Positions 1,837-38,453 of a stretch of DNA of 64,000 nt are shown one piece after another (within the stretch, counting starts at the first letter, position 1; each line of letters starts with the position of its first letter). The DNA lies in the NCBI RefSeq assembly GCF_002095475.1, contig NZ_MLFR01000003.1, positions 124,001-188,000 of the forward strand, read 5' to 3'. Both the position numbers and the translations under genes were made by a program. The notes under the pieces were generated by a model. That model was not told where the DNA came from. It was given only the letters and a program-made list of their open reading frames with translations, and made no database searches. The DNA comes from Pantoea rwandensis (GTDB lineage: Bacteria; Pseudomonadota; Gammaproteobacteria; Enterobacterales; Enterobacteriaceae).

Positions 1837-4800
1837 CTACACCTTCTCAACGTTAACCAGGAACGCCTTAAACTCAGGCGTTTGCGTGTTAGCATCACCG
1901 ACAAACGGCGTCAGGGTATTGGCGATAAAGCCTTTTTTCGCCACACCTTGATAGCCCCAGTGAATCGGAATGCCGATGGTATCGATGACTTTGCCATCGA
2001 CATTCAGCGAGCGGATGCGTTTGGTAACTACCGCTTTGGCTTTGATAAAGCCGCGATTGGAGCTCACTTTCACCGTGTCGCCCTGCGTGATGCCCAGCTT
2101 GTTGGCCAGCTTCTCGCCAATCTCCACAAACTGTTCCGGCTGCGCGATAGCGTTGAGCAACGCGTGTTTGGTCCAGTAATGGAAATGTTCGGTAAGACGA
2201 TAGGTGGTACCGACATATGGGAACTGCTCCGCTTTGCCCATCGCCGCCAGATCGTCCTTGAACACGCGTGCTGCCGGGTTGGAGATCACGTTCGGGTGCA
2301 ATGGATTGGTGCCGAGCGGCGTTTCAAACGGCTCGTAGTGTTCCGGGAACGGTCCTTCGGCCATTTTGTCGAGCGCAAACAGGCGGCCAAGGCCTTCTGG
2401 CTGCATGATAAATGGCCCCACATTGCTGCCTGGCGCGGCGGTGCTGTAGTCCGGAATATCCATGCCGGCCCACTTGCTGCCATCCCACTTGAGGATTTGC
2501 CGTTTTGGATCCCACGGATTGCCCTGCGGGTCGGCCGAGGCGCGGTTATAGAGAATGCGGCGGTTGAGCGGCCAAGCCCAACTCCAGTTCAGTGTGTTAC
2601 CCAGCCCGCTCGGATCGGTATTGTCACGCCGCGCCATCTGGTTGCCGTCTGGCGTCCAGCTTCCGGCGAAAATCCAGCAGCCGCTACTGGTGCTGCCATC
2701 ATCTTTCAGCTGCGCAAAACTGCTGATCTGTTGGCCTTTTTTCACCAGAAGCGTGCCTTTGTCATCGAACACATCCGCCAGCGCTTTGCCGTTGCTCTCC
2801 ATCGCCACTTCTTCTGAGGCCGGATTGTCTGGCGTCAGATAGTTCCAGGTCATATTCAGCACCTGTTCCGGCAAGGCTCCGCCCTCGCTGGCGTACATTT
2901 TGCGCAAACGGCTGTAGATGCCAGAGAGGATTTCACCGTCATTCAGCGCTTCGCCCGGCGCATCCTGACCTTTCCAGTGCCATTGCAGCCAGCGTCCTGA
3001 GTTGACGATGGAACCGTTCTCCTCCGCGAAGCAGGTGGAGGGCAAGCGGAATACTTCAGTCTGAATTTTCGCCGGATCAACATCGTTAAACTCGCCGTGG
3101 TTTTGCCAGAAGGTCGAGGTTTCGGTATTGAGCGGGTCGATGGTGACCAGGAACTTCAGCTTCGACAGCGAATCGACCACTTTACGTTTGTTCGGGAACG
3201 ACGCTACCGGGTTAAAGCCCTGGCACAAGTAGCCGTTTACTTTGCCCTGCGACATCATCTCGAAGTACTGCAAGACGTCGTAACCTTTGTCCCACTTCGG
3301 CAGCCAGTCAAAGCCCCAGCTGTTCTCGGCCTGCGCTTTGTCGCCGTAGAAAGCCTTCATCATGCTGACGAAGAATTTCGGGTAATTGCTCCAGTAATTC
3401 ACCTGGCCGGGCAGGGTGGCTTTCGGCGTGTTGGCGGTGAGATAGGTTTGAAGATCGGTCTGCTTCTCCGACGGCAGGTTCATGTAACCGGTCAGGCTTT
3501 GCGACAGCAGGCCAAGATCGGTCAATCCCTGAATGTTGGAGTGACCACGCAAGGCGTTAACGCCGCCGCCGGCCATGCCCATGTTGCCAAGCAGCAGCTG
3601 GATCATCGCCATGGTGCGAATGTTCTGCGCGCCTACTGAGTGCTGTGTCCAGCCGAGTGCATACAGGAACGAGGTGGTGCGATCGCGGGCGCTGGTTTCC
3701 CCCAGCAGCTCACACACATGCAGGAAGTCATCTTTCGGTGTACCGCAGATGCGCTCAACCATCTCCGGTGTATAGCGGCTGACGTGCTGTTTCAGCAGGT
3801 TCCACACGCAGCGAGGATGTTGCAGGCTGTCATCGCGCTTGGCAAAGCCGTCATCGCCCAGCTCGTAGTTCCAGCTGGTTTTGTCGTATTTACGATTTTC
3901 TTCGTCGTAGCCGCTGAACAGGCCATCTTCAAAATGATAATCCTCACGCACGATCAGGCTGGCGTTGGTGTACGCCTGCACATATTCATGCTGGATTTTG
4001 TCATTTTGCATCAGCCACAGCAGTACGCCCGACAGGAAAGCGATGTCGGTGCCGGAACGAATCGGCGTATAAAAGTCTGCCACCGATGCCGTACGCGTAA
4101 AGCGCGGATCGATAACAATCAATTTGGCTTTGTTGTGAATCTTGGCTTCCATCGCCCAGCGGAATCCCACAGGATGCGCTTCAGCGGCGTTGCCACCCAT
4201 CACAACGATCAGATTGGCATTACGGATGTCGACCCAGTGGTTGGTCATCGCACCGCGACCAAATGTTGGAGCAAGACTTGCTACCGTTGGTCCGTGTCAA
4301 ACGCGAGCCTGGTTGTCGACCGCTAACATGCCGAGCGATCGGGTAAATTTCTGGGTTAAGTAGCCAGTTTCATTGCTAGAGGCTGAAGCACACAGCATGC
4401 CGGTGCTCAGCCAGCGGTTAACGGTCACGCCTGCAGCATTTTGCGCGATAAAGTTGGCATCGCGGTCGGCCTTCATTAATTTGGCGATGCGATCAAACGC
4501 ATCATCCCAACTGATGCGCTGCCATTTATCCGAACCTGGCGCGCGGTATTCCGGGTATTTCAGACGGCTGTCGCTATGGATAAAATCAAGCAAGCCCGCA
4601 CCTTTCGGGCACAATGCACCACGGCTCACCGGATGGTCCGGGTCGCCTTCAATATGGAAAATAGTCTCTTTGGCGTTTCTCGCGCCATCGCCAAGGCTGT
4701 ACATTAATAAGCCACAGCCCACTGAGCAGTAAGTGCAGGTGTTACGGGTTTCGCGGGCACGCAGCAGTTTGTACTGTCGTGTTTCCGCCAACGCCACTTC

Positions 4801-25722: not shown

Positions 25723-26000
25723 AAAGATGACAACCACGTGACAGAAATAACCCTTTGAAGAGTAAGTAAAAGTTTTTTCGGGCTTCGTTTAAATCTGAGA
25801 GGTGCATCAATATTCGCCCTGGAATGTGCGCTTCATATTGGTGCGCCCGCGCTGCATGACTGTGCAATGAACAAGAGGGTAAGGAAGCCGTTTAACGAAA
25901 TAGTGTTTAATTTCATTGCGTTGAAAGATTGGCACTTTTTTTGAATGTGTTTAAGCAGATGCAGGAGCGATAGCGGGTAACCGACGTCGCCAGACAATTT
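25723..26000. other. Intergenic region upstream of the guanidine operon
   Basis: No coding potential was recognised. The transcription start of the guanidine operon should lie here. A TGGCAC-N5-TTGAA sequence at 25930-25945 resembles a sigma-54 promoter, but its -12 element has GA instead of GC. No convincing sigma-70 promoter was identified by eye. Confidence 0.4.
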
Positions 26001-26004
26001 GCAA

Positions 26005-26095
26005 TGGGTCACTAGGGTTCCGGTCGAAAGATGCTGGTCCGAGAGTGACCGACCGTCCTCTGACGGTTACACGGCGGGACAAAAGCCCGGGAGGA
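26005..26095 (+). ncRNA. Guanidine-I riboswitch (ykkC class)
   Basis: The conserved blocks of the ykkC/guanidine-I aptamer occur in order: CTAGGGTTCCGG (26013 on), GCTGGTCCGAGAG (26033 on), a variable hairpin GACCGTC...GACGGTTAC, then ACGGCGGGACAAAAGCCCGG ending at 26090. The class binds guanidinium and switches on export or degradation genes. Its 3' strand GGGAGG is shared with a terminator hairpin, so ligand binding should permit readthrough. Downstream genes are exactly those expected of a guanidine operon. Confidence 0.93.
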
Positions 26096-26131
26096 AAGCG
26101 AGATCGTTGCTCGCCGCCTCCTGCTTTTTTT
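26089..26131 (+). terminator. Riboswitch-controlled terminator
   Basis: GGAGG (26090-26094) pairs with CCTCC (26117-26121), and GCGAG (26098-26102) with CTCGC (26110-26114); seven Ts follow at 26125-26131. The 5' strand overlaps the last conserved bases of the guanidine-I aptamer, making the two folds mutually exclusive. Confidence 0.8.
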
Positions 26132-26157
26132 CGCCCGTTAACGCCAGAGGAACCATC

Positions 26158-27216
26158 ATGATCAAAGCCTGCCTTCGCTTGCTGTTGCTTTGCACCGTCG
26201 CACTGTTCAGCGTCAATACGCTGGCCGCCGACAAACCCTCCTTCAAGATCTGCTGGTCCATTTATGCGGGCTGGATGCCATGGGATTACGCCCAACAAAG
26301 CGGCATCGTGAAAAAATGGGCTGACAAATACGGCATTGATATCCAGTTTGTGCAGGTCAATGACTACATCGAGTCGGTGAATCAGTACACCGCGGGTGGC
26401 TTTGACGGCTGCACCATGACCAACATGGATGCGCTGACTATTCCTGCCACCGGCGGCGTGGACAGCACGGCGCTGATTGTTGGCGACTACTCCAATGGCA
26501 ATGACGGCATTCTGCTGAAAGGCAAAGGCAACATTGCCTCGCTCAAAGGCAAGCCGATCAATCTGGTCGAACTCTCCGTCTCTCACTATCTGCTGGCGCG
26601 TGCACTGGAGAAATCCGGCATGAGTGAGAAGGATGTCAAAGTGGTGAACACCGCCGATGCCGATCTGGTGGCAGCGTTTGGCACCTCGGACGTGCACTCT
26701 ATCGTGACCTGGAACCCGCTGTTGGCCGAAGCTGAAAAACAGCCGGACAGCCATTTAATTTTCTCTTCAGCACAAATTCCTGGCGAAATTCTCGATTTGC
26801 TGGTGGTAAATACCGCCACCTTGAAAAAGTATCCGCAGCTGGGCAAGGCGCTGACCGGTGCCTGGTATGAAACCCTGAAAACCATGTCCGGCGCGAGTGA
26901 CAGCGCCAAAGCTGCCCGCACGCAAATGGCGCAGGCTTCCGGCACCGATCTGGCGGGCTTCGATCAGCAGCTGGCCGCCACTCACTTGTTCAGCGATGCC
27001 AAAACCACCCTCGATTTTGTCGACAGCCCGCAGCTGAAAGCCACCATGCAGTTGGTCGCTGAGTTTTCCTTTAAACACGGTTTACTGGGTGAAGCCGCAC
27101 CGAGTGCCGATGTAGTGGGCGTGGAAACACCAGCAGGCAACTGGGGTGATACCGGCAACCTGAAACTGCGCTTCACCGATGAGTTCACCAAACTGGCCGC
27201 CGCTGGCCAGCTGTAA
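26158..27216 (+). CDS. Guanidine operon ABC transporter, substrate-binding protein
   Basis: A 352-residue NitT/TauT-type periplasmic binding protein. The signal peptide is MIKACLRLLLLCTVALFSVNTLA, cleaved before ADKPSFKICW. The mature start KICWSIYAGWMPWDYAQQSGIVKKWADKYG is typical of ykkC-associated 'putative urea' binding proteins. The ATG at 26158 follows AGAGGAA and the riboswitch terminator; the frame is open further upstream through the riboswitch but is not coding there. Being first in a guanidine-I operon with a guanidine carboxylase, it probably binds guanidine; no binding data can be read from sequence. Confidence 0.88.
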   Translation: MIKACLRLLLLCTVALFSVNTLAADKPSFKICWSIYAGWMPWDYAQQSGIVKKWADKYGIDIQFVQVNDYIESVNQYTAGGFDGCTMTNMDALTIPATGGVDSTALIVGDYSNGNDGILLKGKGNIASLKGKPINLVELSVSHYLLARALEKSGMSEKDVKVVNTADADLVAAFGTSDVHSIVTWNPLLAEAEKQPDSHLIFSSAQIPGEILDLLVVNTATLKKYPQLGKALTGAWYETLKTMSGASDSAKAARTQMAQASGTDLAGFDQQLAATHLFSDAKTTLDFVDSPQLKATMQLVAEFSFKHGLLGEAAPSADVVGVETPAGNWGDTGNLKLRFTDEFTKLAAAGQL

Positions 27217-27224
27217 GCGAGACG

Positions 27225-28043
27225 ATGCCGATGCGTAAATTGATCAACTACCAACCGCTGCCGCTCGGTCGCCTGCTGCTTGGCATCCTGCCGCTGCTGG
27301 CGCTGCTGCTGGTCTATCTGTTCGCGTCGGATGCGCGTCTCAGCCTGAACGCCGCAGACAAACTGTTGCCGGGGTTTAACGCCATGGGGGACGCCATCAG
27401 TCGCATGGCGTTTCAGCCCAGCCCACGCACCGGTGAATATCTGCTGTGGACTGACACCGTCGCCAGCTTGATACGTCTGCTCAGCGGCGTAGCAATCAGC
27501 GCACTGTTGGCGCTGGCGATTGGCCTGTTCACCGGCGCGCTGCCGGTGGTCCGCGCGGTATTAGCACCGCTGGTCACAGTGGTGGCGCTCGTGCCGCCGC
27601 TGGCGATTCTGCCCATTCTGTTTATCTGCTTTGGCCTCGGCGAAGTCTCGAAAGTGGTGCTGATTGTCATTGGCATTACCCCGCTGATTGCACGTGATTT
27701 GCAGCTGCAGGTGGAGAAAATCCCGCGCGAGCAGCTGGTGAAAGCGCAGACCTTGGGTGGGCACAGCGCGCAGATTTTGTGGCGCGTGATCTTGCCGCAG
27801 ATGATGCCGCGTCTGCTGGATGCGGTGCGTTTGTCGCTGGCGTCGGCGTGGCTGTTCCTGATTGCTGCTGAAGCGATTGCCGCCACCGAAGGGTTGGGTT
27901 ACCGCATCTTCCTGATGCGTCGTTACCTGGCGATGGACGTCATTTTACCGTACGTGGCGTGGATCGCGCTGCTGGCCTTTATCCTCGACCTGCTGCTGCG
28001 GCTGATTAGCCGTCGCTGCTGGCCGTGGTATCACGCGAAATGA
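27225..28043 (+). CDS. Guanidine operon ABC transporter, permease
   Basis: A 272-residue inner-membrane permease of the NitT/TauT (SsuC/TauC-like) type with six predicted spans and the EAA coupling loop IPREQLVKAQTLGGHSAQILWRVILPQMMPRLLDAVR. An ATG six bases later (27231) is an equally plausible start. It lies eight bases after the binding-protein gene and overlaps no other real gene. Confidence 0.88.
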   Translation: MPMRKLINYQPLPLGRLLLGILPLLALLLVYLFASDARLSLNAADKLLPGFNAMGDAISRMAFQPSPRTGEYLLWTDTVASLIRLLSGVAISALLALAIGLFTGALPVVRAVLAPLVTVVALVPPLAILPILFICFGLGEVSKVVLIVIGITPLIARDLQLQVEKIPREQLVKAQTLGGHSAQILWRVILPQMMPRLLDAVRLSLASAWLFLIAAEAIAATEGLGYRIFLMRRYLAMDVILPYVAWIALLAFILDLLLRLISRRCWPWYHAK

Positions 28044-28057
28044 TTCAGGAGCGAACC

Positions 28058-28819
28058 ATGCCATTACTGCAACTGAAAAACCTCGAAAAACATTACGGCG
28101 ATCAGGTGGTGCTGGAGCGTCTCAACATCAACGTCGAGCAGGGCGAGTTTGTGGCGATTGTCGGGGCGTCCGGCTGTGGCAAAACCACCTTCCTTAACAT
28201 GCTGCTCGGCACCGAATCGCCGACCAAAGGGCAACTTCTGCTGGACGGCGAACCGATTCCCGATGAACCCGATGCTCATCGCGGTGTGGTGTTTCAGCGT
28301 TACTCGGTGTTTCCCCATCTGACGGTGCTCGGCAACGTGATGCTAGCGGAAGAATTCAGCACCGCTCGCTGGCTGGGCCGCGTCTGGGGTAAGAAACGAC
28401 AAGAAATTCGCCAGCGGGCGCAGGCGATGTTGGCACAAGTTGGCCTGGAACATGCGCAGAGTAAGTATCCACACCAGCTCTCGGGCGGCATGCAGCAACG
28501 CCTGGCGCTGGCGCAGGCACTGATGAAGCAGCCGCGCATCCTGTTACTCGACGAACCTTTTGGTGCGCTCGATCCCGGCATCCGCAGTGAAATGCACCAG
28601 CTGATTACTCAACTGTGGCAGCAGCACAACCTGACCATTTTTATGATCACCCACGACCTGAAAGAGGGCTTCAGCCTGGCTTCACGCCTGCTGGTGTTCG
28701 ACAAACTGCGTCATGACCCACATGCGCCGGAAGCTTGGGGCGCCACCATTACTTACGACCTGCCGCTCGACCGCGATCAGCCTGCTGCTGGCCTGCCGTC
28801 TGAGCCGCAAGTGGCTTAA
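28058..28819 (+). CDS. Guanidine operon ABC transporter, ATPase
   Basis: A 253-residue ATPase: Walker A GASGCGKTT (about residues 37-45), Q-loop VVFQRYSVFPHLTV, signature LSGGMQQRLALAQALM, Walker B ILLLDEPFGALDP and H-loop MITHDLKEG. It belongs to the nitrate/taurine importer ATPases. The start at 28058 has AGGAG upstream; the longer frame from 28025 overlaps the permease and is not needed. Confidence 0.9.
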   Translation: MPLLQLKNLEKHYGDQVVLERLNINVEQGEFVAIVGASGCGKTTFLNMLLGTESPTKGQLLLDGEPIPDEPDAHRGVVFQRYSVFPHLTVLGNVMLAEEFSTARWLGRVWGKKRQEIRQRAQAMLAQVGLEHAQSKYPHQLSGGMQQRLALAQALMKQPRILLLDEPFGALDPGIRSEMHQLITQLWQQHNLTIFMITHDLKEGFSLASRLLVFDKLRHDPHAPEAWGATITYDLPLDRDQPAAGLPSEPQVA

Positions 28820-28830
28820 AGGAGAAGAGT

Positions 28831-29538
28831 ATGAATGCCTATCAAACACGTTTGCCAGCAGGGTCGCACTGGTCACTGGTGATGCGCAGCGGAACTGCCC
28901 TGGCGTTAACCGATATCGAAGGGGGGGCCAACGTGGGCCTGTTGTTTTACAACCCCGAAAACCTGCTGGAGCGGTACAACGCACCCGACACCCTGAAATG
29001 CCAGCACACGTTTCGCCTTACGGAAGGCCACTGCTTGTATTCCGATATGGGACGTATTTTCTGCGGTATCGAGCAGGACAGCTTTGGTTGGCACGAAACG
29101 GTGTGTGGCACGCTAAACGCCCAGCAAACTGCCGCCCGTTTTGGCGTCAGTGATTATCAGGAAGCGCGCAATCTGCGCCACCAAAATGGCTATGACAGCT
29201 TCCTGACTGAACTGGCGAAATACGGTCTAGGCCATCGTGATATGGCAGCCTGTCTCAATTTGTTTGCTCAGGTTCGGGCTGATGACAACGGTACGCTACA
29301 ACTCGAAAAGCAGGGTGCACCCGGTGCAAGTGTGCGTCTGCGCTTCGCCATGGACACGCTGGTGATTCTGCACACCTGTCCACATCCCTTGACCACGGCC
29401 AGCGATTATCCGCGTCAGTCCGTGCAGATCGAACTCGATAGCCAGCGCACGCCGCTACCTGAAGTTTGTCTTCAACGCGGTGAAAACCAGCGTGGCCTGC
29501 GCAACAACTCGCTGTATCAGCTGCAAGGAGAAGTGTGA
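28831..29538 (+). CDS. DUF1989 protein, carboxyguanidine deiminase subunit (UAAP1-type)
   Basis: A 235-residue DUF1989 protein, formerly 'urea amidolyase-associated protein 1'. Family marks are ALALTDIEGGANVGLLFYNPENLLERYNAPDTLKCQHTFRLTEGHCLYSDMGR and CGTLNAQQ...NGYDSFLTELAKYGLGHRDMAACLNLF, with cysteines and histidines able to bind metal. Published work on guanidine degradation shows that such DUF1989 pairs (CgdAB) deiminate carboxyguanidine to allophanate. Here the operon places it between transporter and carboxylase. Its stop overlaps the next start (TGATG), which suits a heteromeric enzyme. Confidence 0.85.
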   Translation: MNAYQTRLPAGSHWSLVMRSGTALALTDIEGGANVGLLFYNPENLLERYNAPDTLKCQHTFRLTEGHCLYSDMGRIFCGIEQDSFGWHETVCGTLNAQQTAARFGVSDYQEARNLRHQNGYDSFLTELAKYGLGHRDMAACLNLFAQVRADDNGTLQLEKQGAPGASVRLRFAMDTLVILHTCPHPLTTASDYPRQSVQIELDSQRTPLPEVCLQRGENQRGLRNNSLYQLQGEV

Positions 29539-30173
29539 TGATCAATGAAAGTGTGCTTAATCTTGCCGACGCGCAGTTCCAGCAACAGGTGAACGCCGGT
29601 GATTACTGGCTCCAGCGCATTGAAACAGGCCAGACATTGCGTATTACCGACCTGGAAGGTAATCAGGCGGCAGATACCCTGTTCTTTAATGCCGACGACA
29701 CTGCCGAGCGCTACAGCATGAGCGATACGTTGCGCGGGCAGAAGAACGTTTTTCTCACCGCGGGCAGCGTGCTGCGTTCCAACTTAGATCGCCCGATGTT
29801 GACGCTCACCGCAGATACCTGTGGTCGCCACGATACGCTGGGCGGCGCCTGTTCCTGTGAGAGCAACACCGTGCGCTACGACCTGGAAAAACGCCACATG
29901 CACTCCTGCCGTGACAGCTGGATGCTGGCAGTAGCAGCGAATCCGGCCTTCGGTCTGACGCGGCGCGACATTACCCACAACATCAACTTCTTTATGAATG
30001 TGCCAGTGACGCACGAGGGTGGCTTGACCTTCGCTGACGGGATCTCTGCTCCGGGCAAATATGTCGAGATGGTGGCGGAGATGAATATCCTGGTACTGAT
30101 CTCCAACTGTCCGCAGCTTAATAATCCCTGTAACGGTTACAACCCGACGCCGATCTTAGTCAGCGTGTGGTGA
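29538..30173 (+). CDS. DUF1989 protein, carboxyguanidine deiminase subunit (UAAP2-type)
   Basis: A 211-residue DUF1989 protein, formerly 'urea amidolyase-associated protein 2', the presumed partner of the preceding gene. It shows ITDLEGNQAADTLFFNADDTAERYSMSDTLRGQKNVFLTAGSVLRSNLDRPM, then CGRHDTLGGACSCESNTVRY with clustered cysteines and the C-terminal SNCPQLNNPCNGYNPTPI. The ATG at 29538 shares a base with the preceding stop and was preferred to the GTG three bases earlier. An intergenic gap of 80 bases containing a guanidine-II riboswitch separates it from the carboxylase. Confidence 0.85.
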   Translation: MINESVLNLADAQFQQQVNAGDYWLQRIETGQTLRITDLEGNQAADTLFFNADDTAERYSMSDTLRGQKNVFLTAGSVLRSNLDRPMLTLTADTCGRHDTLGGACSCESNTVRYDLEKRHMHSCRDSWMLAVAANPAFGLTRRDITHNINFFMNVPVTHEGGLTFADGISAPGKYVEMVAEMNILVLISNCPQLNNPCNGYNPTPILVSVW

Positions 30174-30184
30174 ATCTTTGACGC

Positions 30185-30233
30185 AACGGGACGACCCGTT
30201 TTTAGCCGTCATTGTTCATGCAGGACGACCTGC
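30185..30233 (+). ncRNA. Guanidine-II riboswitch (mini-ykkC class)
   Basis: Two short hairpins with identical ACGA tetraloops occur in tandem. The first is AACGGG-ACGA-CCCGTT (30185-30200); the second is GCAGG-ACGA-CCTGC (30220-30233). They share the core GGACGACC and are separated by 19 bases. Two GG-ACGR-CC hairpins in tandem define the mini-ykkC/guanidine-II class, which binds one guanidinium per loop. The second hairpin ends eight bases before the purine-rich ribosome-binding site of the carboxylase gene, so translational control is likely. Confidence 0.88.
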
Positions 30234-30253
30234 CGTAATAAGAGATTTCACCC

Positions 30254-33200
30254 ATGATTGATCGCGTATTGATTGCCAACCGTGGCGCGATTGCCGTGCG
30301 CATTATCCGGACCCTGCAAGCCATGAATATTCGGGCGATTGCGGTCTATGCCGAAGCCGACCGCCACGCGCGCCATGTGCGGCTGGCCGATGAAGCCTGG
30401 TCACTGGGCGAGGGCCAGGTCCGAGATACCTACCTCAACCAGCAAAAAATACTGGAAATTGCCGCGCAGAGTGGGGCGCAGGCTCTGCATCCGGGTTACG
30501 GTTTCCTCAGTGAAAATCCTGAGTTTGTCACGCGCTGTGAAGCGGCTGGCGTGCAGTTCCTCGGCCCGAGTGCCGAGCAGATGGCCGCGTTCGGTTTGAA
30601 ACATCATGCGCGTGCGCTGGCACAGGAAAATCAGGTGCCCCTGTTGCCAGGCAGTGGTTTGCTGACTTCGCTGGACGAAGCACACGTCATGGCGAAACAG
30701 ATTGGCTACCCGGTGATGCTGAAAAGCACCGCCGGTGGTGGCGGTATTGGCATGCAGCGCTGTGATGATGCCAGACAGTTAAATGCGGCGTTTACGCGTG
30801 TTAAACGACTGGCGGGCAATAATTTCGCCGATGATGGTGTATTTTTAGAGAAGTTTATCGCTCGCGCGCGTCACATTGAGGTGCAGATTTTCGGCGATGG
30901 GGCCGGCAATGTGATTGCCCTCGGCGAGCGAGATTGTTCCGCCCAGCGCCGCAACCAGAAAGTGCTGGAAGAAACGCCCGCGCCGGGATTGAGCGATGCG
31001 GTACGTGCCGAGCTACAGGCTACGGCGGTGCGGCTGGCGTGCGCGGTCAACTACCGCAGCGCGGGTACCGTGGAGTATGTCTACGATGATGCCAGCCAGC
31101 AGTTCTGGTTCCTCGAAGTGAACACGCGCTTACAGGTGGAGCACGGCGTAACTGAAATGGTGTACGGCGTGGATTTGGTGCGCTGGATGGTGGAACTGGC
31201 GCAGCAAACGTTGCCGTCGCTGCACACCTTAACGACTGAAGCGCAAGGCCATGCTATTCAGGTGCGCCTGTACGCCGAAGATCCGGCCAAACAGTTCCAA
31301 CCGAGTGCCGGTTTGCTCAGCCACGTACATTTTCCGACGAAGAGTGAAAACGCCACGTTGCGCATCGACAGCAGCGTGGAGACCGGCATGGAGGTGTCGC
31401 CGTTCTACGATCCGATGCTGGCAAAAGTGATTGTGCATGCGGCCAGCCGAGAAGGGGCATTGCACAGCATGGCGCAAGTGCTGGATGCTACCGAGCTGTA
31501 CGGTATCGAAACCAATCTGCTGTGGTTGCGCCATCTCTGTTCGCTGCCAGAAATCCAGCAGGGCCGCATCATCACCGCCACTTTGGGCGGCGTGCAGTGG
31601 CAGCCGCCCACGCTGGATATTCTCAGCGGCGGCACCTTAACTACGGTGCAGGATGCGCCTGGCCGCGTCGGGTATTGGCATGTTGGTGTGCCGCCGTCCG
31701 GCCCGTTTGACAGCCGTGCGTTCCAGTTAGGTAATCGCCTGCTGAATAACGACGCGCAGGCGGCAGGACTGGAAATCACCCTGCGTGGCCCCACGCTGCG
31801 TTTTAACCAGACGTGCAGTTTTGTCATCACCGGGGCACTGATTGCCGCGCAGCTAGATCAGCAGACGCTAACGATGCACCAGATTGTCACCGCACAGGCT
31901 GGGCAAACCCTGACGCTGGGCGATATCAGTGAGGGATGCCGCAGCTATCTGCTGCTGGCAGGGGGCTTGAATACCCCGCGCTATCTCGGCAGCCGGAGTA
32001 CCTTTACGCTGGGTAAATTTGGTGGTCATGCCGGGCGCGCTTTGCGTGCGGGCGACGTGTTGCATCTTGCCGATCCACAGGTGCTGGCAACGGCAGAGTT
32101 GCCTGGCGAGCTGGTGCCGGAACTCAATGGTGAGTGGCAATTACGGGTGATTTACGGTCCGCACGGTGCGCCGACTTTCTTTACCGATGAGGACATCACT
32201 GAATTCTTTGCCGCTGAGTGGCAGGTGCACTACAACTCCAGCCGTACCGGCATTCGCCTGATCGGACCGAAACCGACCTGGGCACGCAGCGACGGCGGCG
32301 AAGCGGGGATGCACCCCTCCAACATTCACGACAATGCTTACGCCTTTGGCACGGTGGATTTTACCGGAGATATGCCGGTTATACTCGGCCCGGACGGCCC
32401 CTCACTCGGTGGATTCGTCTGTCCGGCCACGGTGATCGAAGCCGATCTGTGGAAGCTCGGACAGCTCAAAGCTGGGGATCGTGTGCGCTTCTTGCCGATC
32501 GATCTTAACAGTGCAGATCAACTGGCGCAGGCAGAGCGTGAAGCGATCATCAAACTGCAATCAGCACCGCTTACAGTGAATGCGTCGCTGCCCCTTATTG
32601 ATCCGCTATTGCACCATCAGGTGGCAGAAAATGGCCGTCCATCGCTCAGTGTGCGTGCGGCAGGTGACCGCTTCCTGTTGGTGGAGTACGGCGATTTGAT
32701 GCTGGATATCGCCTTGCGTTTCCGCGTGCACGCGTTAATGCAACAGCTGGAAGCCCATCCGCTGCCGGGTCAGCTGGAATTAACGCCGGGCATTCGTTCG
32801 CTGCAGGTGCACTACGATGCACAGCGCTGTGCAAGAAGTGAGCTGTTGGCGCAAATTTTGCAGATTGATAGAGAGCTGGGCGATCTCAGCGAGGCCGCCG
32901 TGCCATCGCGCACCGTGTGGTTACCGCTCAGTTGGGATGATGCTGCATGCCGTGAGGCCATTACCCGCTACAGCCAGTCTGTGCGCCCTAATGCGCCCTG
33001 GTGCCCCAGCAATATTGAATTTATCCGCCGCATCAATGGCCTTTCCAGCATTGATGAGGTGAAGGAGATCGTGTTCAGCGCCGCTTATCTGGTGATGGGA
33101 TTGGGCGATGTCTATCTCGGTGCTCCCGTGGCAACGCCGCTCGATCCGCGCCATCGACTGGTGACCACTAAGTACAATCCGGCTCGCACCTGGACAGCGG

Positions 33201-33853
33201 AAAACTCGGTGGGCATTGGCGGCGCTTACATGTGTGTATATGGGATGGAAGGGCCGGGCGGCTATCAGTTTGTCGGGCGTACCATGCAGATGTGGAACCG
33301 CGATCGACAAACCGCTGCATTCACTCAGCCGTGGCTGCTGCGCTTCTTTGATCAAATTCGTTTTTATCCGGTTAGCGCCGAGGAATTGCTCACCATTCGC
33401 GAGCGTTTCCCGTGGGGTGACTATCCGCTGCGCAGCGAAGAGGGCGAATTCCGCCTCGCAGATTATCAGGCGATGCTGGTCGAGCAGGCTGAAGATATCG
33501 ACGCCTTCCAGCAGCAACGTCAGCAGGCATTTGACAGTGAGTTGGCGCGCTGGCGCGCTGAAGGGCAATTCACCTTCGACAGCCAGTTACAAGAACAAAG
33601 CGTCGAAGAGATTACGGTGCCTGCAGGGTGTAGCCCGGTAGAGAGCCAGGTGGCGGGCAGCGTGTGGCAATGGTTGGTTGATGAAGGCAGTGAGATTGAA
33701 GCGGGCGCCACGGTAGGCATTCTCGAATCAATGAAGATGGAAATCCCGATCGTGGCGCCAGTCAGTGGAAAAATCCATAGTTTCTATCGGCAGGCGGGGC
33801 AGCAAGTGCAGGCGGGTCAGTTACTTATGGTGATCGATCCTTCTGCGACATAA
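30254..33853 (+). CDS. Biotin-dependent guanidine carboxylase (urea carboxylase family)
   Basis: A 1199-residue multidomain enzyme that carboxylates guanidine (or urea) using ATP and bicarbonate. Residues about 1-450 form a biotin carboxylase (HPGYGFLSENPEF, ATP-grasp loop KSTAGGGGIGMQ, NTRLQVEH). Residues about 455-800 are an AHS2/KipA-like domain (LSGGTLTTVQDAPGRVGYW), about 810-1010 an AHS1/KipI-like domain, and the C terminus a biotinyl domain with biotin-lysine K1161 in ESMKME. The family was long called urea carboxylase. Its guanidine-responsive riboswitches and DUF1989 partners point to guanidine as the real substrate. No allophanate hydrolase gene follows. Confidence 0.92.
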   Translation: MIDRVLIANRGAIAVRIIRTLQAMNIRAIAVYAEADRHARHVRLADEAWSLGEGQVRDTYLNQQKILEIAAQSGAQALHPGYGFLSENPEFVTRCEAAGVQFLGPSAEQMAAFGLKHHARALAQENQVPLLPGSGLLTSLDEAHVMAKQIGYPVMLKSTAGGGGIGMQRCDDARQLNAAFTRVKRLAGNNFADDGVFLEKFIARARHIEVQIFGDGAGNVIALGERDCSAQRRNQKVLEETPAPGLSDAVRAELQATAVRLACAVNYRSAGTVEYVYDDASQQFWFLEVNTRLQVEHGVTEMVYGVDLVRWMVELAQQTLPSLHTLTTEAQGHAIQVRLYAEDPAKQFQPSAGLLSHVHFPTKSENATLRIDSSVETGMEVSPFYDPMLAKVIVHAASREGALHSMAQVLDATELYGIETNLLWLRHLCSLPEIQQGRIITATLGGVQWQPPTLDILSGGTLTTVQDAPGRVGYWHVGVPPSGPFDSRAFQLGNRLLNNDAQAAGLEITLRGPTLRFNQTCSFVITGALIAAQLDQQTLTMHQIVTAQAGQTLTLGDISEGCRSYLLLAGGLNTPRYLGSRSTFTLGKFGGHAGRALRAGDVLHLADPQVLATAELPGELVPELNGEWQLRVIYGPHGAPTFFTDEDITEFFAAEWQVHYNSSRTGIRLIGPKPTWARSDGGEAGMHPSNIHDNAYAFGTVDFTGDMPVILGPDGPSLGGFVCPATVIEADLWKLGQLKAGDRVRFLPIDLNSADQLAQAEREAIIKLQSAPLTVNASLPLIDPLLHHQVAENGRPSLSVRAAGDRFLLVEYGDLMLDIALRFRVHALMQQLEAHPLPGQLELTPGIRSLQVHYDAQRCARSELLAQILQIDRELGDLSEAAVPSRTVWLPLSWDDAACREAITRYSQSVRPNAPWCPSNIEFIRRINGLSSIDEVKEIVFSAAYLVMGLGDVYLGAPVATPLDPRHRLVTTKYNPARTWTAENSVGIGGAYMCVYGMEGPGGYQFVGRTMQMWNRDRQTAAFTQPWLLRFFDQIRFYPVSAEELLTIRERFPWGDYPLRSEEGEFRLADYQAMLVEQAEDIDAFQQQRQQAFDSELARWRAEGQFTFDSQLQEQSVEEITVPAGCSPVESQVAGSVWQWLVDEGSEIEAGATVGILESMKMEIPIVAPVSGKIHSFYRQAGQQVQAGQLLMVIDPSAT

Positions 33854-38166: not shown

Positions 38167-38243
38167 CGGCGAGTAGCGCAGCTTGGTAGCGCAACTGGTT
38201 TGGGACCAGTGGGTCGGAGGTTCGAATCCTCTCTCGCCGACCA
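38167..38243 (+). tRNA. tRNA-Pro (anticodon UGG)
   Basis: A complete 77-base cloverleaf with encoded CCA. The acceptor stem is CGGCGAG/CTCGCCG, the D-arm contains AGCGCAGCTTGGTAGCGC, and the anticodon stem is ACTGG/CCAGT with loop TTTGGGA, giving anticodon TGG. The T-loop is GTTCGAATC. The sequence is the proM type. E. coli carries a CGG-anticodon proline tRNA (proK) at the corresponding dpp locus. Confidence 0.97.
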
Positions 38244-38288
38244 TATTTGAAGAAACCTGCTTGAAAAAGCAGGTTTTTTTTCGTCTGT
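38225..38288 (+). repeat. 64-bp direct repeat, copy 1 (tRNA-Pro 3' end plus terminator)
   Basis: This segment holds the last 19 bases of tRNA-Pro, a short spacer and the whole terminator. It is repeated without change 165 bases downstream. Confidence 0.9.
38254..38281 (+). terminator. Intrinsic terminator of tRNA-Pro
   Basis: AACCTGCTT pairs with AAGCAGGTT around GAAA, followed by six Ts. An identical copy occurs at 38419-38446. Confidence 0.88.
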
Positions 38289-38389
38289 AGTTTAAGAGGA
38301 TGAGAACCTCCGAAGGAGGTTTGAGCCGAGCGCAGCGAGACAACGTTGCTTTAGCAACGGCCCGCAGGGCGCTTCTCGTAGAGAAGCGT

Positions 38390-38453
38390 AATCCTCTCTC
38401 GCCGACCATATTTGAAGAAACCTGCTTGAAAAAGCAGGTTTTTTTTCGTCTGT
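38390..38453 (+). repeat. 64-bp direct repeat, copy 2 (tRNA-Pro remnant)
   Basis: An exact second copy of the tRNA-Pro 3' end (through CCA) and its terminator, without the rest of the tRNA. The roughly 100 bases between copies contain several small hairpins (AACCTCC/GGAGGTT, CGTTGC/GCAACG, CTTCTC/GAGAAG). This may be a collapsed tandem tRNA copy or an integration scar at a tRNA 3' end. Confidence 0.88.

Follow-up and report, generated by a model that had tools for sequence, protein, structure and literature searches.

How an operon that carries two different classes of guanidine riboswitch is controlled is the question raised by a locus of Pantoea rwandensis. The window, meaning the whole stretch of DNA analyzed here, comprises 64,000 nt of contig NZ_MLFR01000003.1 (assembly GCF_002095475.1, positions 124,001-188,000, forward strand), and the locus consists of a Guanidine-I (ykkC) aptamer, genes for an ATP-binding cassette (ABC) importer, the carboxyguanidine deiminase genes cgdA and cgdB, a Guanidine-II (mini-ykkC) element and a carboxylase gene. 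The interpretation reached, to which a probability of roughly 85% is assigned, is that of a guanidine-assimilation operon started by sigma-54, controlled by readthrough at Guanidine-I, provided with Guanidine-II as a second sensor and served by the allophanate hydrolase of a separate sigma-54 operon. Both RNA elements, the terminator, the gene identities, the conservation and the sigma-54 motif have been computed in this work.

Riboswitches and genes of the operon

RNA elements were searched with the Rfam 15 covariance models at their curated thresholds on both strands of the entire window, and protein families were assigned with NCBIfam models judged against their own cut-offs (Table 1). A first-pass annotation of this DNA had proposed a Guanidine-I aptamer with an overlapping terminator at the head of the operon, and a Guanidine-II hairpin pair in series with it before the carboxylase gene. 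The covariance models have located both classes in that arrangement, neither below its threshold although Guanidine-II was marginal, and the gene order and coordinates given in that annotation were right. No third guanidine element was detected by Rfam in the window, and the entire genome contains one over-cut-off match for each guanidine family, both at this operon. A sub-threshold Guanidine-II match at G000:C8 (18.3 bits), located where an unrelated gene begins, was taken as chance.

The predicted terminator consists of an outer stem (26088-26094 with 26117-26123) followed by CTTTTTTTC, and its 5' arm shares positions 26088-26095 with the aptamer. The fold of the Guanidine-I leader was better than that of shuffled sequences (z-score -3.21, 1/200). 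Searched with a pattern of our own, 59 of the 88 distinct Guanidine-I leaders contained a terminator, which started within the aptamer in 56 of them. Because the terminator overlaps the aptamer, the modeled structure supports an action of Guanidine-I through transcriptional readthrough, in which guanidinium would bind the aptamer and raise the readthrough.

The match to TIGR02712 covers residues 3-1194 of the carboxylase, that is, the domain architecture of urea/guanidine carboxylases. Residue Asp702, in the motif GTVDFTGD, aligned with the Asn of GAINFTGD in the yeast urea carboxylase 3va7, a column that is presumably the selectivity position (N1330) meant in the review literature. An Asp was present there in 79 of the 80 named carboxylase loci kept from at least 590 (the pattern was not found in the remaining one), and an Asn occupies this column in a carboxylase paralogue that the same genome encodes on contig C4. 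Asp marks guanidine carboxylases and Asn urea carboxylases according to the 2025 review PMC12186494, and on this residue the carboxylase would be of the guanidine type. The NCBIfam names, urea carboxylase and putative urea ABC transporter, would assign the operon to urea instead of guanidine, but this is highly improbable given the Asp at the selectivity position, the two guanidine riboswitches and the presence elsewhere in the genome, without a riboswitch, of the Asn-bearing paralogue and an allophanate hydrolase.

Table 1. Positions of the operon features, followed by further RNA features of the window.
Feature	Window position	Strand	Evidence and remarks
NtrC-like dyad 1, CGCTTCATATTGGTGCG, weak	25829-25845		10/14 consensus positions, 101 nt before sigma-54 site
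NtrC-like dyad 2, CGCTGCATGACTGTGCA, weak	25850-25866		9/14, 21 nt from dyad 1
Sigma-54 (-24/-12) promoter-like site, TGGCAC-N5-TTGAA	25930-25945	+	10/11 consensus points, 71 nt before aptamer
Guanidine-I (ykkC) riboswitch aptamer, RF00442	26001-26095	+	81.8 bits, threshold 63, E 5e-13
Intrinsic terminator, 5' arm overlapping aptamer 3' end (predicted)	26088-26131	+	folding energy of the stretch -22 kcal/mol; CTTTTTTTC follows
ABC transporter substrate-binding protein (guanidine importer)	26158-27216	+	TIGR03427, 530.1 bits, cut-off 333.9
ABC transporter permease	27225-28043	+	best PRK10160, 138.2 bits, under cut-off 342
ABC transporter ATP-binding protein	28058-28819	+	many ABC ATPase models, none shown above cut-off
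cgdA-like (UAAP1), carboxyguanidine deiminase subunit	28831-29538	+	TIGR03425, 280.1 bits, cut-off 205.95
cgdB-like (UAAP2), carboxyguanidine deiminase subunit	29535-30173	+	TIGR03424, 323.0 bits, cut-off 284.7
P1 basal extension, TGACG / CGTCA (P1 whole 30179-30211)	30179-30183 / 30207-30211	+	outside Rfam model
Guanidine-II (mini-ykkC) riboswitch, RF01068	30183-30233	+	33.1 bits, threshold 32, E 0.0077
Guanidine-II loops, P1 and P2	30191-30194 and 30225-30228	+	both ACGA
Weak Shine-Dalgarno, AAGAGA	30240-30245	+	predicted paired with cgdB end
Guanidine-type carboxylase gdnC/gca (putative), 1199 amino acids, Asp702	30254-33853	+	TIGR02712, 1793.2 bits, cut-off 1303.85
SECIS_3 bacterial selenocysteine insertion element	4244-4302	-	83.4 bits
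tRNA gene then RtT RNA	38167-38408	+	

Conservation of the paired riboswitches

The survey of related genomes proposed in the first-pass annotation was carried out with the two riboswitch models in 61 genomes of the genus and 343 of the family. In the genus, Guanidine-I was over its cut-off in 34 genomes and Guanidine-II in 36, and each of the 34 genomes with Guanidine-I also had Guanidine-II, at a distance of 4.1-4.4 kb in 33 of them and 35.8 kb in the other (G020). Three genus genomes had Guanidine-II without Guanidine-I: G026, G060 and G011 (the last below cut-off). The element is followed in G026 and G060 by a gene for a 104-amino-acid protein resembling, by eye, a small multidrug-resistance exporter; G060 (L153, L213) contains two Guanidine-II matches, each before a small exporter-like gene and with a LysE-like gene upstream, as judged by eye. 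In the family, Guanidine-I was over cut-off in 52 genomes and Guanidine-II in 166. The regions fetched downstream of Guanidine-I matches provided 49 family loci outside the genus, some of them below the Rfam cut-off and recognized by a lenient pattern, and all 49 contained the six genes and the hairpin pair before the carboxylase gene.

A strict pattern applied to the 64 named loci with at least 6 kb of upstream sequence detected both elements in 36; 15 showed only Guanidine-II, 4 only Guanidine-I, and 9 neither in complete form. This pattern was too strict for Guanidine-I, which Rfam recovered in three of six loci scored without it (L076, L094 and L097); in L104, Rfam found Guanidine-I only downstream on the opposite strand. 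Six further named loci analyzed with Rfam had both classes over threshold in five cases and Guanidine-I only in L070. The bearers include records of Enterobacterales, Alcanivorax-like bacteria, Saccharophagus, Gallionella and Sideroxydans, and several Nitrosomonas records and Thiothrix were found without the Guanidine-II hairpins. As judged from the sequences compared, the pairing of the two classes is a stable, widely kept design and no oddity.

In G020 (L150, L151; G020:C34:166500-205500) the gene of the substrate-binding protein is split by a phage-like insert of about 31 kb, with tail and transposase-like genes recognized by eye. Guanidine-I is thereby parted from the remaining operon, which constitutes a natural polarity test. 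Relatives of the carboxylase were also found on plasmids of 280-455 kb from Pantoea ananatis and P. anthophila (PLSDB records H1 and H4-H10).

The conservation also bears on whether the Guanidine-II match is a functionless chance pair of GG-ACGA-CC hairpins, as its score of 33.1 bits against a threshold of 32 (E 0.0077) would allow. This is scarcely credible, since the hairpin pair was found at the same place in the 49 extra-genus loci, the loops and closing pairs are invariant across leaders while stems and flanks vary, and the counterpart in Vreelandella boliviensis binds guanidine (PMC12508155). The window's Guanidine-II would likewise bind guanidine.

The series of two classes on one transcript, which the first-pass annotation had considered a notable architecture, turned out to be already described, and partly tested, in V. 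boliviensis (PMC12508155, 2025), and it is also given for Raoultella, Erwinia and Klebsiella in PMC12186494, so the window represents one more member. The V. boliviensis operon, with an arrangement reported 'like in several other bacteria', shares with the window the Guanidine-I 5' leader, the ABC importer genes, cgdA/cgdB and a Guanidine-II placed after cgdB and before the carboxylase gene, but it also has mgdH, mgdL and atzF, whereas the window operon has no allophanate hydrolase gene. Dissociation constants of 44 uM for Guanidine-I and, for Guanidine-II, of 93 uM for guanidine and 83 uM for methylguanidine were reported, the operon proteins were strongly up-regulated on guanidine, transcriptional and translational action was proposed for the elements, and dual control by guanidine riboswitches of different specificity was called interesting for further study (PMC12508155). 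The operons of PMC12186494 agree with the window in having importer and deaminase genes under Guanidine-I and the carboxylase gene directly downstream under Guanidine-II; they differ in containing the allophanate hydrolase gene, which in the window genome is on another contig. A 2022 review of tandem riboswitches had seen no tandem guanidine classes (PMC9481103), and elements 4 kb apart may lie outside its definition of tandem.

Promoter, transcript and the separate allophanate hydrolase

The sigma-54-like site and the missing allophanate hydrolase gene go beyond the first-pass annotation. For the former, 105 distinct regions of 150 nt before Guanidine-I were scored on 11 consensus points, with GG and GC at -24/-12 ten bases apart. 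A score of 10 was reached in 88 regions and of 9 in 100 (L098, L105, L116, L125 and L142 remained under 9), and in the controls a score of 10 was found in 9 of 4032 windows inside operons and in one of 99 regions upstream of Guanidine-II. Both GG and GC were present in 91 of the 105 regions, and the position of the site is conserved in relatives, most sites being 53-75 nt from the aptamer. In 49 of 115 regions, a set in which some genomes appear twice at different fetched lengths, the best NtrC-like dyad outscored shuffled sequences (p <= 0.01), and the clade relatives of the window (L049-L055, L057-L062) have dyads comparable to its own at -100 to -102.

In an ntrC mutant of Burkholderia cenocepacia H111 under nitrogen limitation, urea carboxylase expression fell (-6.0), as did that of related transporter and aminomethyltransferase genes, with no value given (PMC5491218); a survey of sigma-54 regulons includes COG3665 genes, 59% of them named urea carboxylase (PMC12316311). 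The B. cenocepacia locus L215, a conspecific record and not the locus of H111, for which the NtrC-dependent expression is reported (PMC5491218), resembles the window in its guanidine-type carboxylase (GAVDFTGD) and in Guanidine-I preceded at 49-54 nt by a sigma-54 motif. It differs in having two divergent, back-to-back Guanidine-I elements (L215:5719-6407), whose motifs precede them by 54 and 49 nt, and in lacking a Guanidine-II over threshold. No link of sigma-54 to guanidine riboswitches was found in the open-licence papers searched, nor any mention of sigma-54, RpoN or NtrC in the PMC12508155 text searched. The conserved sigma-54 motif before Guanidine-I is apparently a new part of the system and suggests a third control layer, that of nitrogen status, in which the motif would be an active promoter and NtrC its probable activator.

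That both elements are on one transcript, as the first-pass annotation had held, is likely for the entire operon because the genes are closely packed, sigma-70-type sites are scarce and the sigma-54 motif is nearly absent before Guanidine-II. The alternative, that Guanidine-II and the carboxylase gene are transcribed separately from a promoter of their own, so that the elements do not act in series, could account for the carboxylase gene left in place in G020 when the insertion separated Guanidine-I. It is nevertheless improbable, as 8.6 kb yielded a single weak sigma-70-type site, below the 3.9 expected by chance, the sigma-54 motif was seen upstream of Guanidine-II in the one region mentioned above, and the gene gaps are short.

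The window contains no gene for allophanate hydrolase. The sole over-cut-off gene of the genome immediately precedes the Asn-type carboxylase gene on contig C4, with an exact sigma-54 motif shortly before its first in-frame ATG, and Rfam found no riboswitch in the 15-kb stretch around it. In the genus, an allophanate hydrolase gene was present in 55 of the 61 genomes, including the 34 with Guanidine-I, where a distance of more than 550 kb or a different contig separates it from the operon, and the sigma-54 motif was upstream in 29 of the 30 genes fetched from those 55. Among the named loci, the gene was nearby in 44 of 80 overall and in none of the 16 of lineage A (window-like, carboxylase identity about 71-97%; lineage B, mostly 58-60%) within the 2.4-10 kb examined after the carboxylase gene. 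Guanidine and urea use can share, in this way, one allophanate hydrolase from a different operon.

The Guanidine-II leader and the levels of control

Of 126 distinct Guanidine-II leaders, 101 had two strict hairpins, and 98 remained after three without a Shine-Dalgarno duplex were dropped. Both loops were ACGA or ACGG in 96 of the 101; the other five have a rare ACGT or ACGC loop in one hairpin (L102, L103, L122 and L171 among them), and their ligand specificity may differ from the usual one. In the window and its lineage A relatives, P1 is prolonged by a basal helix with a one-sided bulge (window 30179-30211). This extension covaries in lineage A, with 25 of 27 distinct sequences scoring at least 13, compared to 36% on average when partners were permuted, and the real mean was reached in 0/500 permutations, a test in which related sequences are not independent. 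RNAalifold, applied to 35 lineage A and 30 lineage B leaders, recovered only P1 and P2, and neither the extension nor P0, the pairing of the flanks.

The Guanidine-II class is described in print as gating translation (PMC9561414, PMC12508155). The Pseudomonas aeruginosa element shares with the window two GG-ACGA-CC hairpins and a proposed flank P0 helix hiding the Shine-Dalgarno, but controls a transporter gene, whereas the window element is intra-operonic, with its 5' arm reaching into cgdB and with the P1 basal extension (PMC9561414). In the window, the leader fold had a z-score of -2.66 (4/200 shuffles), the predicted helix joins the last part of cgdB and its stop codon to the start codon and Shine-Dalgarno region, and the predicted Shine-Dalgarno pairing was 0.89 compared to 0.56 (standard deviation 0.20) with shuffled flanks; in the near relatives L063-L065 it was only 0.26-0.29. 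P0 was partner-specific in lineage A (-12.92 versus -11.15 kcal/mol, 0/2000 permutations; p 0.041 over 14 hand-made clusters, a few of which drive the result) and absent or reversed in lineage B and other leaders; in lineage B the pairing of the 5' flank with the start region was worse than with permuted partners (-8.00 versus -9.63 kcal/mol). The Shine-Dalgarno was weaker in loci with Guanidine-II (mean -3.7, n=56) than without it (-5.5, n=14; p 0.003), a contrast that may reflect kinship, the latter loci being mostly Nitrosomonas. Nitrosomonas-type loci without the hairpins (L091, L094, L096, L099, L108 and L109 among others) have mostly a stronger AAGGA-type Shine-Dalgarno near the start.

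Several observations weigh against the proposed scheme. The window and its clade have GA instead of GC in the -12 element, and the window site is the sole exact match to a pattern widened to admit it; in the window alone, sigma-54-like sites are no scarcer than expected by chance (9 observed against 7.56, with one mismatch), and the NtrC-like dyads are non-significant alone, dyad 1 being equaled by shuffles in 10% of cases. By the pattern used, 29 of the 88 Guanidine-I leaders lack a terminator bearing a clear U-tract (weak or absent). Guanidine-II clears the Rfam threshold by only 1.1 bits and is marginal taken alone, so its reality rests on conservation. A conserved masking of the Shine-Dalgarno was not supported as a general mechanism, with a mean over the 98 leaders of 0.565 compared to 0.595 in shuffles and a higher real value in 39 of them.

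The two-level control proposed in the first-pass annotation is thus sustained in part: transcriptional readthrough fits the terminator, but translational gating did not gain from the 98-leader comparison, where masking was not above shuffles, and in the window it would follow by analogy with the class. It is possible, though unlikely, that Guanidine-II works otherwise than by hiding the Shine-Dalgarno, through mRNA stability, intra-operon Rho-dependent termination or coupling of cgdB and carboxylase translation. Such a mode would agree with the lack of excess masking, the lineage B flanks, the inclusion of the cgdB stop codon in the window's helix and the possible linkage of mRNA levels and translation (PMC12508155). 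The partner-specific P0 of lineage A argues for masking, as do the P. aeruginosa results, in which guanidine increases ribosome-dependent cleavage of the element and mutating the proposed P0 helix leaves it locked in the on state (PMC9561414).

Under the interpretation of a sigma-54-started operon with two guanidine sensors, transcription would probably start at the sigma-54 promoter, active under nitrogen scarcity, and the nascent RNA would fold into the Guanidine-I aptamer. Binding of guanidine would block the terminator that shares the 3' end of the aptamer, and the polymerase would continue over the importer, cgdA, cgdB and carboxylase genes. The Guanidine-II hairpin pair before the carboxylase gene would sense guanidine a second time, most probably acting on the initiation of translation, and allophanate, the end product of the operon enzymes, would be split by the allophanate hydrolase of the separate sigma-54 operon. 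It is considered likely that these parts form a conserved three-input switch, with nitrogen shortage acting on initiation through sigma-54 and NtrC, Guanidine-I on elongation and Guanidine-II on carboxylase translation, the hydrolase being provided concurrently, in this genus, by a separate sigma-54 operon that also serves urea use.

The sigma-54 motif provides a testable upper layer that is unmentioned in the guanidine papers examined. If it is right, guanidine use would be gated by nitrogen status, a gating that measurements of single riboswitches on plasmid promoters would miss, and if the three-input switch is true, the ATP-consuming carboxylase would be made only under nitrogen shortage and when guanidine is present at two successive checks.

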